From positions 1-33,384 of the forward strand of contig JALSHU010000012.1 in assembly GCA_026982075.1 (NCBI GenBank): a stretch of 33,384 nucleotides of DNA. The letters are read 5' to 3'. Below the pieces are notes generated by a model. The model had not been told where the DNA came from. It saw only the letters and a program-made list of their open reading frames with translations, and did not search any database. Each line of letters begins with the position of its first letter. Positions within the stretch are counted from its first letter, which is position 1. This document shows, one piece after another, positions 6,040 to 32,722 of this stretch. This stretch comes from Sulfurovum sp. Its GTDB lineage: Bacteria; Campylobacterota; Campylobacteria; Campylobacterales; Sulfurovaceae. The position numbers and the translations under genes were made by a program.

Positions 6040-6732
6040 ATGATGATGAAAAAAACACTATTACTACTAAGTACGATATTCACACTAGGACATACTTTAT
6101 ATGCAGCAGAAGGTGATGACCCTATTAGGAGTATGTTTCTTATGGATCAATTTGAAATAAGAAATACAGATACTGAAAACCTTCGTACATGGGAAGGTAG
6201 CTTTTATATAGGGTATGACATTGACAAACTCTATTTTTATAGCACAGGAGAAGCCACAAAAGAGGGCTTGGAAAGTAGCCAAAATGATTTGGTTTACTCC
6301 AGAGCCATTGCACCCTTTTGGGATGCACAAATAGGACTTGCTTATGACAAAAATGCAGATGCATCCAAAACATGGGGAGAGATAGCGATAGCAGGACTGG
6401 CACCCTACTGGTTCGAGACAAGAGCTGCACTACTTGTCAATAGTGACGGTAATGTAGGTGTAAGATTAGATGCAGAATATGAAGCTCTCATCACACAAAA
6501 ACTCATACTTACCCCTTCTTTGGAAGCTGATTTTTATACGAAAAATGATGCACAACTTGCTATAGGTTCAGGGCTATCTCTTGTAGAGGCTGGTCTACGT
6601 TTACGTTATGAAATAAAACGTGAGTTTGCTCCTTATATCGGTGTAGTATGGGAAAAGACATTTGGCAATACACGTGACTATAATCCTGTAGATGAAACCA
6701 GTTTGTTAGTAGGTGTACGATTTTGGTTTTAG
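6040..6732 (+). CDS. copB: Copper resistance protein B (CopB/PcoB) outer-membrane protein
   Basis: Signal peptide then DQFEIRNTDTENLRTWEGSFYIGYDIDKLYFYSTGEATKEG...APYIGVVWEKTFGNTRD, typical CopB; directly after copA. Confidence 0.9.
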   Translation: MMMKKTLLLLSTIFTLGHTLYAAEGDDPIRSMFLMDQFEIRNTDTENLRTWEGSFYIGYDIDKLYFYSTGEATKEGLESSQNDLVYSRAIAPFWDAQIGLAYDKNADASKTWGEIAIAGLAPYWFETRAALLVNSDGNVGVRLDAEYEALITQKLILTPSLEADFYTKNDAQLAIGSGLSLVEAGLRLRYEIKREFAPYIGVVWEKTFGNTRDYNPVDETSLLVGVRFWF

Positions 6733-6734
6733 CC

Positions 6735-6768
6735 AATATTAAGTATTTTTTTATTGTGACTTAATATT
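6735..6768. repeat. Perfect 10-bp inverted repeat AATATTAAGT / ACTTAATATT between copB and the riboswitch promoter
   Basis: Arms 6735-6744 and 6759-6768, 14-nt loop ATTTTTTTATTGTG; right arm abuts the -35 element. Confidence 0.6.
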
Positions 6769-6782
6769 ACAAGTGTTATACT
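6754..6782 (+). promoter_or_regulatory. Predicted sigma70-type promoter for the riboswitch/DUF1800-DUF1501 operon
   Basis: TTGTGA (6754-6759) - 17 nt - TATACT (6777-6782), upstream of the riboswitch aptamer. Confidence 0.55.
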
Positions 6783-6825
6783 AACTGTCAAAATGAAGTA
6801 ATATTCTGGTAATATTTTTCATTTA

Positions 6826-6908
6826 CAATACGACAAAGCTAAACCTATCGTGAGGTAGGGACAGAAAGCCATGGGTCTTCTAATAGAAGATCGCCAGGTT
6901 ACCTATTG
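6826..6908 (+). ncRNA. Cyclic di-GMP-I (GEMM-I) riboswitch aptamer
   Basis: CAATACGACAAAGCTAAACCTATCGTGAGGTAGGGACAGAAAGCCATGGGTCTTCTAATAGAAGATCGCCAGGTTACCTATTG: P1 CAATA/TATTG, stem CCTATC-[GTGA]-GGTAGG with GNRA tetraloop, GGGACnnAAAGCC, hairpin TCTTCT/AGAAGA, GCCAGGTTACC; compensatory CU/AG change at the conserved GC/GC tertiary pairs. Confidence 0.93.
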
Positions 6909-6918
6909 ATATACACAA

Positions 6919-6963
6919 GTTATACCTTCATATATGGAGATAACTGCGTCTATTTTTATTTTC
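6919..6963 (+). terminator. Candidate intrinsic terminator / expression platform downstream of the riboswitch
   Basis: Hairpin GTTATACCTTCA-TATA-TGGAGATAAC (two 5-bp helices with 2-nt bulge) followed by TGCGTCTATTTTTATTTTC. Confidence 0.5.
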
Positions 6964-7024
6964 AGGTTACTCCTTTCTCTCCTGTATACCCTACTGTTTG
7001 TTTGCTATCAAACAAAGGATATCT

Positions 7025-8716
7025 ATGTATCATAAACACACGCTACTCAGGTTGACTTCGACTTTTATTATCTCTCTTATGCTCACCAACTGTGGGGGTG
7101 GAGGAAGTGATGACAGTGTAACGGCAACACCAACAGGTACCCCGGCATCTACAACAAATACAGCCACTGAAGATACTATCTATGACTTATCATACAAAGG
7201 TCTAACTTTTTATCATAAAGATATGCCCCCATCTGAATATCAACTCAATCAAGTTAGCAATGATGAGTTTAATGCCTTTTCGGAACAAAAAAAGTTACAA
7301 GTTGCCAATAAACTCCTAAGTACTCTCTTTTTTGGATACCCTTTAAAAACGCTTGAGAATAAAATCAATTCTGGTAGTTTCATCAATGATATTCATTCAG
7401 GATTTACTGAAGATAAGACAGATAAAGCTTGGCTGGAAGATTACATTGTAAATGAAGACATCTTCAGGCAAGTCAGCTATAACGAACAAGTAGCTGTCGA
7501 TATTTTAAGTCGCTTTTTTGCCATGGAAGAATTAGACAGTTATTTCATCAAGAATTGGATGGCATATATACTCACACAAACGATTATGTTTTCTCCTGCC
7601 TATGAACTTGATTCAACCTCTACACCCAATATTGCCCGAGTGTATAATCGCCTTGTCAGCATGTTAAACAGCGAAAGTGGTATGCGATACATTGGATATG
7701 TGCATATGATGAGTGAAGATAACTGGAGACGTTTTAGAAGTCCAGAAGACAATGGTAGAGAAATGTTAGAAATTTTTACGTTGGATGAAGATGACTCTCA
7801 TGTACCTATAGCTGGACAAGCATTAAAAAATTGGAAACTAGACAGAGACAATGATACTTTAGTCGTCAGTCTCAATCAAAATACAGAAGCACTCACACTT
7901 TTTGGTACTACCATCTATAATGGTGATGACTTTTACAGAGAATTGGTTAAATCTAATTTATATACCAAAGGAGTGAGTAGCCGTCTTGTTGAATTTTTCT
8001 TTCCAAATGAAACAGAAAGTCAAAAAACAGACATCCTCAATGCTCTCATTGCCAGTAAACCAGAAACATGGAAAGACATTCTCATACAAATTGTCTTTTC
8101 AGAAGCATATCTTTTACATTCAGAACAAGCCAAAAGTGCAGAAGAACTCTTCTTTCCAATGGCAAAAAGAATGCACTTTAAACATCAAACACGTACCCTT
8201 CATAATCTTAAATATGCCCTTGATGAAATGCATCAAGCAACCATGAGATATAAACTGGGAAAACTTGAACGCGTCCCGCTTGATACCCTTTCTTTTGCAA
8301 ATTATCACCGTTTTATACGTGAACAGCTTATGTTAAAAAATTCAAATCCTACAAAAATAAATGATTACACCGCATATGACCGACATGGATGGGATGAGAG
8401 TTTCGTTGACAATACAAACTTCACCTTTGATGGTGAAAATGTTGTTGAAAGTTTAACGTCATTCATTCACTACCTTTTTAAAGCAACGATTATGCGTAAT
8501 GCTTCAACTGAAGAGTTAGCCCTTTTTAAAACGCATATGCTTATAGGTACAGTGGGTGACCAAATACTTCGAAATGAATTTAATATGTTTAGAACAGACG
8601 ATGATCCCGTAAGACAAAGAGAACAAAGAGAAATCAGAAAGAAACGTATTGCTACAGTTGTCCTAGACTATATCTCAAGATTAGAAGAAACATATACGCA
8701 ACAAAAGGTGAAATAA
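7025..8716 (+). CDS. DUF1800-like secreted lipoprotein (divergent)
   Basis: Start ATG 7025 preceded by AAAGGATATCT; lipobox LMLTNCGGGG; SPEDNGREMLEIFTLDED...AGQALKNWKL resembles the DUF1800 NENxARELxELFTLG...ARALTGW motif; directly upstream of a DUF1501 gene. Confidence 0.65.
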   Translation: MYHKHTLLRLTSTFIISLMLTNCGGGGSDDSVTATPTGTPASTTNTATEDTIYDLSYKGLTFYHKDMPPSEYQLNQVSNDEFNAFSEQKKLQVANKLLSTLFFGYPLKTLENKINSGSFINDIHSGFTEDKTDKAWLEDYIVNEDIFRQVSYNEQVAVDILSRFFAMEELDSYFIKNWMAYILTQTIMFSPAYELDSTSTPNIARVYNRLVSMLNSESGMRYIGYVHMMSEDNWRRFRSPEDNGREMLEIFTLDEDDSHVPIAGQALKNWKLDRDNDTLVVSLNQNTEALTLFGTTIYNGDDFYRELVKSNLYTKGVSSRLVEFFFPNETESQKTDILNALIASKPETWKDILIQIVFSEAYLLHSEQAKSAEELFFPMAKRMHFKHQTRTLHNLKYALDEMHQATMRYKLGKLERVPLDTLSFANYHRFIREQLMLKNSNPTKINDYTAYDRHGWDESFVDNTNFTFDGENVVESLTSFIHYLFKATIMRNASTEELALFKTHMLIGTVGDQILRNEFNMFRTDDDPVRQREQREIRKKRIATVVLDYISRLEETYTQQKVK

Positions 8717-10080
8717 TGGAAAGAAGAACATTTATAAAATTATCCATGGCCACAATTACAGCTCTCTTAGCGCCATCTATCAGTTCTGCAAAAGAATTAG
8801 ATGTCAGTCAAGTCATTTTTTCTTCTGCTATAAATAGTACGAATAATGCACAAACCATTATGATATTTATGTATGGAGGTGCCAGTCAACTTGGAGGAAA
8901 CCTCACCAATATAGACGAAATCCAAAATGCATCTCAAAGTAATTATAACAACTACTTTAGAGGTATTACCAAAACAATCAATAATTGTTGGCAAGAAGCT
9001 GGCGGTACATATATGGAAAGTCTTATGGCAGATGGAGATATGAGTCTCTTTAGGTGCTGTTACTCCCAAGTAAGAGAGGAAAATAATAACAAATCACACG
9101 GTTCATGTACAGTACAAAACCAAAAAGGCTCTTTTGATGATGACAATGCAGGTATGATTGCCACACTGGCACAAGTACTTGAAGCAAATGGTATTGTCAA
9201 TGAAAACAGTGTCATGCCATTTATCACTATGGAAGGGGAGTCCAAGTTTTATGCAGAAGGAAAAAACCCATTAAAAAGCTACCTAAAGCCAGTGGGGATA
9301 GATGAAAATTTGAGTAACCCATATAGCAGATACTCACGACAGTGGTATTATTATACAGATACAGAACAGGACATTCCAAACTATAACAATAAAGATACAG
9401 GATTTGATGCTGCACTGTATACAAAAATGGATACCCTCTCACAAACTAAAAATAAAGCAGGGAAAATCAAAGATGCTTTCACAAAACGAGCTTCACTTGA
9501 TACCTTCGTTGATACTATTGCAAACTCTGTAACACCTGATTTAGGTGCTGATGCTTATCCAACCAATAATCGTTTTGCAGAGAAAATAGAAACAGCTATT
9601 AAAATCTTATCAAACAACCCCGATACGAAAATACTTACCTTAGGAACCAATGGTCTTGGTGGTTGGGATGACCACAATGAAGCAAGAGATTATGTAACAA
9701 GAATGGAAAATCTTTTTAGAACACTCAAGTCTGCTATGGCACATATTAAGGCTGAAGGTAAAGCGCAAAATATCAATATCATGGTCTTTTCTGAATTTGG
9801 TCGAAATGTAAATCTCAATTCTGCATTTGGGTGGGACCATGGAAACTTGCAAAACTTCTATGTCTTGGGAGGAAAAGGCTACTTTAATCACAAAGGTGTG
9901 GTGGGAGAAACCGTACTTGAAAATACAGGTGCCATTAACCGAATGTTTTTAAAACCTAAAAGTGGAACCTACCAATTTGAACCAATGAGTATCGCAGCAA
10001 CACTCTATAAGATTTATGGTATAGAAAACCCAGAAACACTTACCAATGGAAATAATGCAGTGATGCCACTGTTTACTTAG
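8716..10080 (+). CDS. DUF1501 family protein with Tat-like signal
   Basis: MERRTFIKLSMATITALLAPSISSA; LGGWDDHNEARDYVTRMENLFRTLKSAM...IMVFSEFGRNVNLNSAFGWDHGNLQNFYVLGG is the DUF1501 signature; ATG overlaps the upstream stop codon. Confidence 0.88.
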   Translation: MERRTFIKLSMATITALLAPSISSAKELDVSQVIFSSAINSTNNAQTIMIFMYGGASQLGGNLTNIDEIQNASQSNYNNYFRGITKTINNCWQEAGGTYMESLMADGDMSLFRCCYSQVREENNNKSHGSCTVQNQKGSFDDDNAGMIATLAQVLEANGIVNENSVMPFITMEGESKFYAEGKNPLKSYLKPVGIDENLSNPYSRYSRQWYYYTDTEQDIPNYNNKDTGFDAALYTKMDTLSQTKNKAGKIKDAFTKRASLDTFVDTIANSVTPDLGADAYPTNNRFAEKIETAIKILSNNPDTKILTLGTNGLGGWDDHNEARDYVTRMENLFRTLKSAMAHIKAEGKAQNINIMVFSEFGRNVNLNSAFGWDHGNLQNFYVLGGKGYFNHKGVVGETVLENTGAINRMFLKPKSGTYQFEPMSIAATLYKIYGIENPETLTNGNNAVMPLFT

Positions 10081-10650
10081 CTATATCTTCACTCTTGCTT
10101 CCAATGCACGCGAGAGTGACATCATATCTATATTTTCTAACTCTACTCCTGTTGGGACACCTTGGGCAATTTTGGTAAATTCTATTTCAAGCCCCTTTAA
10201 TTTATCTTCTATATACAACATCATAGTATCCGTTGCGATACTTGGAGGAAAAGCAAATATAATTTCATCAACTCCGCCTACTGCATAAAAGAGATGTGCC
10301 TCATCTAGGTCACGTACTTCTGAAATAACATAATACACACCATCAAACTGTCCACTCTCTTCTATCGTCAAGATATCTTTTGCAGACTGTACGATACAAA
10401 GTTTTCGACTATCTCGATAAGGGTCAGAACAGATATTACATAGTTCATCTTCACTCATGTTATGACATTTTGTACACTTTTGTATGACATTCACGCCTGT
10501 CTCAAGCGCATGTGCCAGTTTCATCGCTGCAAATCCATCTTGCATCACAGCATGGTATGCTAAACGTACAGCTGTTTTTTTACCGATTGAAGGTAAAGAG
10601 TTAAAAGCTTCCACCAAGTTTTCAAAAGCTTCTATTTTATAGTTTTTCAT
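10081..10650 (-). CDS. recR: Recombination protein RecR
   Basis: LPSIGKKTAVRLAYH; Cys4 zinc finger CTKCHNMSEDELCNIC; Toprim LCIVQSAKDILTIEESGQFDGVYYVI. Confidence 0.95.
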   Translation of the reverse strand: MKNYKIEAFENLVEAFNSLPSIGKKTAVRLAYHAVMQDGFAAMKLAHALETGVNVIQKCTKCHNMSEDELCNICSDPYRDSRKLCIVQSAKDILTIEESGQFDGVYYVISEVRDLDEAHLFYAVGGVDEIIFAFPPSIATDTMMLYIEDKLKGLEIEFTKIAQGVPTGVELENIDMMSLSRALEARVKI

Positions 10651-30388: not shown

Positions 30389-32722
30389 ATGAATAATCAA
30401 ATAAATGCAGAAGATTTTAATCAAGCTATTGACAATAAGTCCATCTCATTTGAAAACCGCCTAACCTACGATAAATTAAGTTTTTACTATATCTCAGTAC
30501 CTATTATGCTACTTGGTAATATATTAGGAGCATTCTTACTAAGTGCTATGCAGATTAATGTTGTAGATTTCTACTTTATAGGTATCTGGTTACTTGTGAG
30601 TTTTATTATGTTTTTGTATCAACTGTACCATTACTATCAATTTAAAAATGAAACAGAAGAAAATAAACTTAAAAATGCTGATATATGGCTAGATAAATAC
30701 TATACTAATATACTCCTTAGTGGTATTGTATGGGGTAGTGCCGCATTTTTAGTTTTTCCTGAATCCAATCTACTAAATCAAATGATTGTCATGTTGTTTC
30801 TATTTGCCATTGGTTTTTCTGCTATGGGAGTACTTGCTTCAAAGCAAGATTTGCTTTTAACCTATGTCTTAGCTACCTATTCACCCCTTATTTTACGTTT
30901 ATTTTTTATGGAAGATGATTTATATACTAAAATTGCTTATGCGGTATTGGCTTTAATGCTTATCATGATACTCATAGCAAACTATTATGGCAAAATCATC
31001 AATAACTCTTTAAATAACCGTCAACACTTTATTACCATTAAACATTCCCATGAAAAGCTGAAAGAACGATTTTTTTCCTTATTTGAACGTGCACCTGTAG
31101 GCATATATTATTATGACAAAGATTTAAAACTGCAAGATGTTAATACTCACTTTATACAAATGAATAAAGTAGAGACAAAAGAGGATTTACTCAATTTAAA
31201 TCTTAACACATTAACTGATAAGCGAATTATCAATACACATGAAAAAGTATTTAAGGGGAACAGTAGTCATTATCGTGGTCCATTTGAAATACAAAACAAT
31301 GATACAAATATTTATGTAAACCTCTCGTGTGTACCTATGTTTGACTCGGATGGTAATGTTGCTGGAGGTATTACAATCATTAATGATATTACCAATGAAA
31401 TTACAGCAAAAGAAGAAATGATTAGGCATGCCTATTATGACATGCTTACCAGTATTCCAAATCGTACACTACTCATGGATAAATTAAAAAGTTTTCTCAT
31501 TGATAGAAAAGATCAAAAAGAATATGCATCACTTCTTTTTTTAGATATTGATAATTTTAAAAAAGTTAATGAAACTTACGGACATGATGTAGGAGATAAT
31601 TTACTTAAGCAAGTTGTAATCCGTATAGAAAAAATGATTGGTAATACGGAAATATTTGCACGTATCAGTGGAAATAAGTTTGTTATATTACTTCCTATAT
31701 TAGATATAGACGAAATACAATCTCAAACATTAGTAACACAGTACATAGACTCAATTAACAAACAGTTTCTTCTCCCCTTAAATTTGGCAGGAGAAGAGTA
31801 TCATCTGAGTTTTACTATTGGTGCTGTTTTATTTCATGATAATACTGTATCAGCATATGACCTTCTCAAGCGTTCTGAGACAGCAATGTACCGGGCAAAA
31901 AATTCAGTCAAAGGCTCAAGCCTATTTTATCGAAGCAGTATGAGTGAATATATTAAAGAAGAACTCATGCTTGAAAATGACATCCATAAAGCGATCAAAA
32001 ACCATGAATTTGAAATATATTATCAACCACAACTTGATTTTTATGAAAATAAAATTATAGGGGCTGAAGCACTTGTACGATGGAACCACCCGACGAAGGG
32101 GTCTATCCCTCCTGCAAAATTTATACCTATCGCTGAAGAGAGTGGTATTATTATTAAACTAGAAGAATTGATTTTTGATAAAGTACTTGAAGAAATAAAA
32201 ATACTTAGTTTATTGGAAAATGGTTTTACACTTAATCATATTGCTATTAATGTTAGTACCATACATTTTCTACAGCCACATTTTGTTGAAAAACTAATGC
32301 TTCTAGTGAGTAAACACAAAGTCAAACCAGAATGGGTTGAACTTGAAATAACTGAAAATGGGGTGATGCAAAATATTAAAGATGCGGTCCAGAAAGTGCA
32401 TGAATTAAAATCTTTTGGTTTTACAATTTCTCTCGATGATTTTGGTACAGGATACTCCTCATTAGCATATTTGAAAGAATTGCCAGTAGATACCATAAAG
32501 GTTGATCAATCATTTGTTTTTAATATGAATGAAAATGCTGGTGATGCAATGATTGTGGAGTCAGTTGTAGCCATAGGGAAAAAATTTAGTTTCAAAATTT
32601 TAGCTGAAGGAGTTGAAAATAAAGAGACATTAGCACAGCTAAAATTAATCAATTGTGATTCTTATCAAGGTTTTTTTGCGCATAAACCAATGCCTCTTGA
32701 GCAGTTAATAAAATTACTCTAA
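30389..32722 (+). CDS. Membrane-anchored PAS-GGDEF(degenerate)-EAL protein, putative c-di-GMP phosphodiesterase
   Basis: N-terminal TM helices; PAS-like FERAPVGIYYYDKDLKLQDVN; GGDEF domain with SGNKF in place of GGDEF; EAL domain with EALVRW, INVS, LEITE, DDFGTGYSS, KVDQSF, AEGVE, QGF. Confidence 0.93.
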   Translation: MNNQINAEDFNQAIDNKSISFENRLTYDKLSFYYISVPIMLLGNILGAFLLSAMQINVVDFYFIGIWLLVSFIMFLYQLYHYYQFKNETEENKLKNADIWLDKYYTNILLSGIVWGSAAFLVFPESNLLNQMIVMLFLFAIGFSAMGVLASKQDLLLTYVLATYSPLILRLFFMEDDLYTKIAYAVLALMLIMILIANYYGKIINNSLNNRQHFITIKHSHEKLKERFFSLFERAPVGIYYYDKDLKLQDVNTHFIQMNKVETKEDLLNLNLNTLTDKRIINTHEKVFKGNSSHYRGPFEIQNNDTNIYVNLSCVPMFDSDGNVAGGITIINDITNEITAKEEMIRHAYYDMLTSIPNRTLLMDKLKSFLIDRKDQKEYASLLFLDIDNFKKVNETYGHDVGDNLLKQVVIRIEKMIGNTEIFARISGNKFVILLPILDIDEIQSQTLVTQYIDSINKQFLLPLNLAGEEYHLSFTIGAVLFHDNTVSAYDLLKRSETAMYRAKNSVKGSSLFYRSSMSEYIKEELMLENDIHKAIKNHEFEIYYQPQLDFYENKIIGAEALVRWNHPTKGSIPPAKFIPIAEESGIIIKLEELIFDKVLEEIKILSLLENGFTLNHIAINVSTIHFLQPHFVEKLMLLVSKHKVKPEWVELEITENGVMQNIKDAVQKVHELKSFGFTISLDDFGTGYSSLAYLKELPVDTIKVDQSFVFNMNENAGDAMIVESVVAIGKKFSFKILAEGVENKETLAQLKLINCDSYQGFFAHKPMPLEQLIKLL

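Follow-up and report, generated by a model that had tools for sequence, protein, structure and literature searches.

Organization of the locus

The window analyzed here is a stretch of 33,384 nucleotides of Sulfurovum sp. DNA (contig JALSHU010000012.1). Positions 6754–10080 of this window are occupied by a single unit consisting of a promoter candidate, a riboswitch aptamer, and two genes, with the following features on the forward strand.

6754–6782 (+): sigma70-type promoter candidate, TTGTGA-17-TATACT with TG before the −10 element (consensus scan, 9/12 matches)
6829–6907 (+): c-di-GMP-I riboswitch aptamer (Rfam models; covariation in 17 sequences)
about 6826–6909 (+): extent of the aptamer as lengthened by an outer helix, CAATA/TATTG
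6918–6945 (+): hairpin AGUUAU...AUAACU 3' of the aptamer, with a broken U-run behind it
6967–6982 (+): pyrimidine tract TTACTCCTTTCTCTCC, recurrent in most leaders of the family
7025–8716 (+): first gene, encoding a 563-aa predicted lipoprotein, a remote DUF1800 homologue
8716–10080 (+): second gene, encoding a 454-aa Tat-type DUF1501 protein (MERRTFIK)

The −10 element TATACT is found at 6777–6782, where an earlier sequence-only reading of this DNA had placed the promoter; its status is that of a consensus match, and it is retained in the closest relative (L066). The first gene begins about 115 nt downstream of the aptamer, most likely at ATG 7025 rather than at the upstream TTG 6998; ATG 7025 is preceded by a good Shine-Dalgarno sequence, AAAGGA, and the lipoprotein signal peptide begins there. 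The stop/start overlap of the two genes noted in that reading was confirmed as TAATG at 8714–8718, in which the TAA of the first gene (8714–8716) shares one base with the ATG of the second (8716–8718), and this tight coupling is kept in relatives. At 10080 the unit is closed by a directly adjoining convergent recR-like gene (10081–10650), which identifies it as a two-gene operon. After copB, a 10-bp AT-rich inverted repeat (AATATTAAGT/ACTTAATATT, window 6735–6768, z = −2.6) overlaps the −35 element of the operon promoter and may be a terminator-like dyad or an operator.

The riboswitch aptamer and its leader

The c-di-GMP riboswitch is confirmed at 6829–6907 on the forward strand, where it lies above the thresholds of two Rfam models, with 64.8 bits against RF01051 (c-di-GMP-I, gathering score 35) and 61.5 bits against RF03167 (c-di-GMP-I-GGC, gathering score 59), the latter being ranked first by cmscan. 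The GGC class was considered and rejected: next to the short inner helix, on its 3' side, the model consensus has G, but the window and all 17 aligned sequences have A, and the aptamer is therefore filed under c-di-GMP-I. In this alignment, which comprises 17 sequences from the genome of the window and its relatives, 10 of the 20 helix pairs have changed on both sides yet remain paired in at least one sequence, and few are broken; this covariation indicates that the RNA is under selection. The columns that we assign to pocket nucleotides G20, A47, and C92 (literature numbering of the class) are G, A, and C in 17/17 sequences; given this invariance, c-di-GMP should be the ligand that the RNA prefers. 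The element thus resembles the c-di-GMP-I (GEMM-I) class in score, helices, conserved core, and 5' leader position, but differs from it in that no classic terminator was found in the leader and that its target genes were not found reported for the class in the literature searched.

The candidate terminator of the sequence-only reading was not confirmed: a terminator scan of 6600–7100 returned no classic intrinsic terminator. What is present is the hairpin at 6918–6945, which is weak (−6.4 kcal/mol), is followed 5 nt later by a broken U-run, and folds only mildly better than shuffled sequences (z = −1.67); it is part of the expression platform but not a terminator of the classic kind. Leaders of relatives share a common order of aptamer, variable hairpin, pyrimidine tract, and Shine-Dalgarno sequence, with the tract usually located at +30 to +56 after the aptamer (mean z of 2.0 in 23 leaders). 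Minimum-energy folds in which the tract is paired with the aptamer core were obtained for several leaders, suggesting a specific anti-aptamer pairing. This candidate was rejected, because in a shuffle test of all 23 leaders of the pair and most riboswitches of other genes the pairing was no stronger than in composition-matched shuffles. The lack of an evident intrinsic terminator makes it probable that control is exerted via translation or Rho-type readthrough.

The Hydrogenimonas-like leaders (L138, L143, L144, L145, L053, and L054) are longer and carry a TATAAT-like sequence between riboswitch and gene that could be a second promoter bypassing the riboswitch.

The two encoded proteins

The first protein had been described as DUF1800-like, a description that stands at the level of profile–profile homology and fails at the level of Pfam membership. 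It has no Pfam or NCBIfam match to DUF1800, and none of 18 family members shows a DUF1800 match even at E = 10. Comparison by hhalign of its 77-sequence family with 14 DUF1800 proteins nevertheless gives E = 5.2e-5 over 214 columns (probability 67%), pairing DNGREMLEIFTLD in register with the DUF1800 block ENYAREIMQLFTLG and extending through the following W-containing block. Three control comparisons of unrelated families gave E values of 0.13 to 0.72, and the true-positive comparison of the second protein with DUF1501 gave E = 1.3e-15. An earlier comparison that used three DUF1800 sequences had stayed short of significance (E = 0.062), which was reached with 14. On the basis of this E value and the lack of a Pfam match, the first protein is best described, from profile evidence, as a remote relative of DUF1800 and not a member by the Pfam definition. 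It thus differs from canonical DUF1800 (PF08811) in falling below Pfam detection and in forming a lipoprotein family of its own, which is centered on sulfur bacteria. Its AlphaFold model is of high confidence (pLDDT 86.8) and mostly helical, and a structure search found no counterpart of the fold in the PDB, where neither protein has a sequence relative.

The assignment of the second protein to DUF1501 (PF07394) is confirmed at 35.9 bits against a cut-off of 27. The Tat motif MERRTFIK is present, and none of 43 sequences departs from its two arginines or from F6. Compared with 13 canonical DUF1501 members, the SH, GGWDDH (canonical GGWDxH), EFGR, and DHG motifs are kept, whereas the canonical GGxD is replaced by GGxS and an insert. 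With the canonical DUF1800-DUF1501 pairs the operon further shares gene order, tight coupling, and the Tat signal on the second protein. The structural model of the second protein (pLDDT 86.6) matches alkaline phosphatases and sulfatases with a probability of 1.00 and E values down to 9e-8, but with low TM-scores of about 0.3–0.5. An alkaline-phosphatase/sulfatase-like fold is accordingly what the model predicts, and a putative metal-dependent hydrolase is the natural reading of it. The likeness to this superfamily, which includes LtaS, lies in the predicted fold and the DHG motif; the differences are the low TM-scores and the lack of sequence similarity to solved structures.

Recurrence of the riboswitch upstream of the gene pair

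Related loci were taken from public genomes, 80 in number and 770 kb in total, and searched with the covariance model. All 18 strong riboswitch matches in the 770 kb are on the coding strand and upstream of the pair; 17 directly precede the first gene, and one precedes a response-regulator gene located just upstream of the pair. The gene following the first is the DUF1501 partner in 74/74 readable loci. Presence was counted in the 70 loci having at least 450 nt of upstream sequence, whole-genome loci included, and a c-di-GMP-I riboswitch is found upstream on the same strand in 22 of them, against a chance expectation of about 0.1 among 70 genes based on the density of 6.8 riboswitches per genome in the genus. 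The Hydrogenimonas-like clade, a Sulfuricurvum sequence, and several Sulfurovum groups have riboswitch-bearing loci, and the tree requires at least nine gains or losses; among the Desulfobulbaceae members, no riboswitch was found before the pair. The remaining 48 loci lack a riboswitch, and riboswitch control is therefore inessential to the pair.

The association extends to a canonical pair. In one Campylobacterales genome (G092), a riboswitch is located 47 nt before a DUF1800-DUF1501 pair recognized by Pfam (267 and 92.6 bits), and a riboswitch also precedes a second gene cluster containing a DUF1800 gene; this is the only one of 150 genomes in a sample of the phylum with a Pfam DUF1800 match. 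The earlier reading of the locus as an operon under a c-di-GMP riboswitch, encoding a DUF1800-like lipoprotein together with a DUF1501 protein of the Tat type, held up in the tests applied here and is strengthened by this recurrence.

DUF1800-like/DUF1501 pairs were also observed in metagenome-assembled genomes (MAGs) of Desulfobulbaceae/Desulfocapsa, Hydrogenovibrio, and Thiotrichaceae (L102–L105, L108–L110, L117, L123, L124, and L127). Their occurrence in bacteria of other groups suggests horizontal transfer or errors in MAG binning.

Other riboswitch targets and c-di-GMP context

Riboswitches of the c-di-GMP-I class are present in 72 of 78 genomes of the genus (531 in total, about 6.8 per genome and up to 21) and in 15 of 200 genomes across the phylum. 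In the window's genome, other riboswitches of this class precede genes for an NlpC/P60-LysM protein, a CarboxypepD_reg lipoprotein, and a GGDEF protein, and one lies upstream of threonine synthase. The CarboxypepD_reg lipoprotein gene lies behind two tandem c-di-GMP-I riboswitches (L057:9893-10109, contig C103 of the window's genome, G000), and similar tandems were seen in relatives G044, G047, G012, and G028. The GGDEF target is a diguanylate cyclase gene (L059:4303-5488, contig C39 of G000), the riboswitch control of which is likely to form a feedback loop. Across the phylum, targets comprise genes for PilJ-domain proteins, chemoreceptors (MCP), DUF4214, and SpaA-fold proteins, a TolC-type (OEP) protein followed by a giant protein, and collagen-like and F5/8-C lipoproteins. 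Within the genus, most genes downstream of riboswitches begin with signal or lipoprotein peptides as read by eye. These other targets, mostly of surface, lipoprotein, or adhesin type, point to a surface programme, and the surface or biofilm role proposed for the pair in the sequence-only reading would fit them.

The genome of the window encodes 13 GGDEF domains over cut-off. One GGDEF-type protein is encoded in the window itself (30389–32722, +), with GGDEF confirmed and a likely EAL domain. The window also contains a purD RNA motif (RF01069, 28464–28593, −, 78.8 bits) upstream of a purD-like gene.

Discussion

The reading that we consider reasonably probable is that the locus is a riboswitch-controlled two-gene operon for an envelope pair belonging to a c-di-GMP surface programme. 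The operon would be transcribed from its own promoter into a leader RNA bearing the c-di-GMP-I riboswitch, which would sense cellular c-di-GMP and adjust the output of both proteins through the part of the leader 3' of the aptamer, that is, the hairpin, the pyrimidine tract, and the Shine-Dalgarno region. As a lipoprotein, the first protein would belong to a divergent DUF1800-like family; the DUF1501 partner would be exported in folded form via Tat, retaining the metal-site-like GGWDDH, EFGR, and DHG motifs of a hydrolase fold. We infer that the two form an obligate envelope pair in which the lipoprotein most likely holds or positions the Tat enzyme, and that this enzyme may modify an envelope or extracellular polymer within the c-di-GMP surface programme. 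The direction of control is presumed, with a slight preference, to be ON at high c-di-GMP, because the other riboswitch targets resemble surface genes of sessile life. Several results weigh against the reading as a whole: 48 of the 70 loci do without the riboswitch, neither a classic terminator nor a tract pairing better than shuffles was found in the leader, the TATAAT-like sequence of Hydrogenimonas-like leaders could bypass the switch, and the fold matches of the second protein have low TM-scores.

The opposite direction is a less probable alternative, in which binding of c-di-GMP would free the pyrimidine tract to cover the Shine-Dalgarno sequence or to load Rho, so that the pair would serve motile or dispersing cells. 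The recurrence of the tract at its usual distance after the aptamer in most leaders and its pairing with the aptamer core in several minimum-energy folds are what such an OFF switch would predict, but the pairing does not exceed that of composition-matched shuffles and the other targets look sessile rather than motile.

Somewhat less probable still is that the Tat enzyme and lipoprotein constitute a general export module not tied specifically to c-di-GMP, the riboswitch being one of several interchangeable controls that some lineages have acquired and the function being, for example, release of nutrient phosphate or sulfate. The phosphatase/sulfatase-like fold, the lack of a riboswitch at more than half of the loci counted, and the occurrence of DUF1800-DUF1501 pairs in many bacteria and varied contexts are all consistent with such a module; against it, the riboswitch association recurs in separate clades and has an independent counterpart at the canonical pair of the Campylobacterales genome. 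A relic aptamer, or one with a different ligand, as the first rank of RF03167 (the best match of its Rfam clan) might suggest, is highly improbable given the higher bit score of RF01051, the A in place of the GGC-model G, and the covarying helices of an RNA under selection.

One published account (PMC5122149) names DUF1800 and DUF1501 as partners in a shared operon, notes the Tat signal, and connects the pair with bacterial chitin synthases and polysaccharide synthesis. The operon described here differs in its riboswitch control and in that no chitin synthase is found among the annotated genes of the window. Sulfurovum symbionts are reported to have expanded sets of c-di-GMP genes, in an account that leaves riboswitches unmentioned (PMC7580541). 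Literature searches found nothing linking DUF1800/DUF1501 to c-di-GMP riboswitches, nothing combining DUF1800 with riboswitches of any kind, and nothing in which the phrase c-di-GMP riboswitch accompanies Sulfurovum or Campylobacterota. The link between the pair and the riboswitch is thus likely to be new to the literature, a grading kept short of certainty because subscription journals lay outside the search.

DUF1501 and DUF1800 proteins are widespread, usually paired, and functionally unexplained, and the riboswitch provides a first regulatory clue to them; Pfam, in addition, misses the divergent DUF1800-like family that vent and sulfur bacteria carry. Sulfurovum emerges as a very heavy user of c-di-GMP-I riboswitches, with a riboswitch-heavy c-di-GMP regulon. 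As a tentative generalization, DUF1800-like/DUF1501 pairs may represent an unrecognised c-di-GMP output, repeatedly wired to c-di-GMP-I riboswitches in sulfur-oxidising Campylobacterota, in which a lipoprotein and a Tat-exported metallohydrolase-like enzyme would remodel the surface or matrix when the level of the messenger changes. Direct and recurrent control by a riboswitch for a known second messenger would assign the pair to a signalling programme and open its role to tests in which c-di-GMP is raised or lowered.
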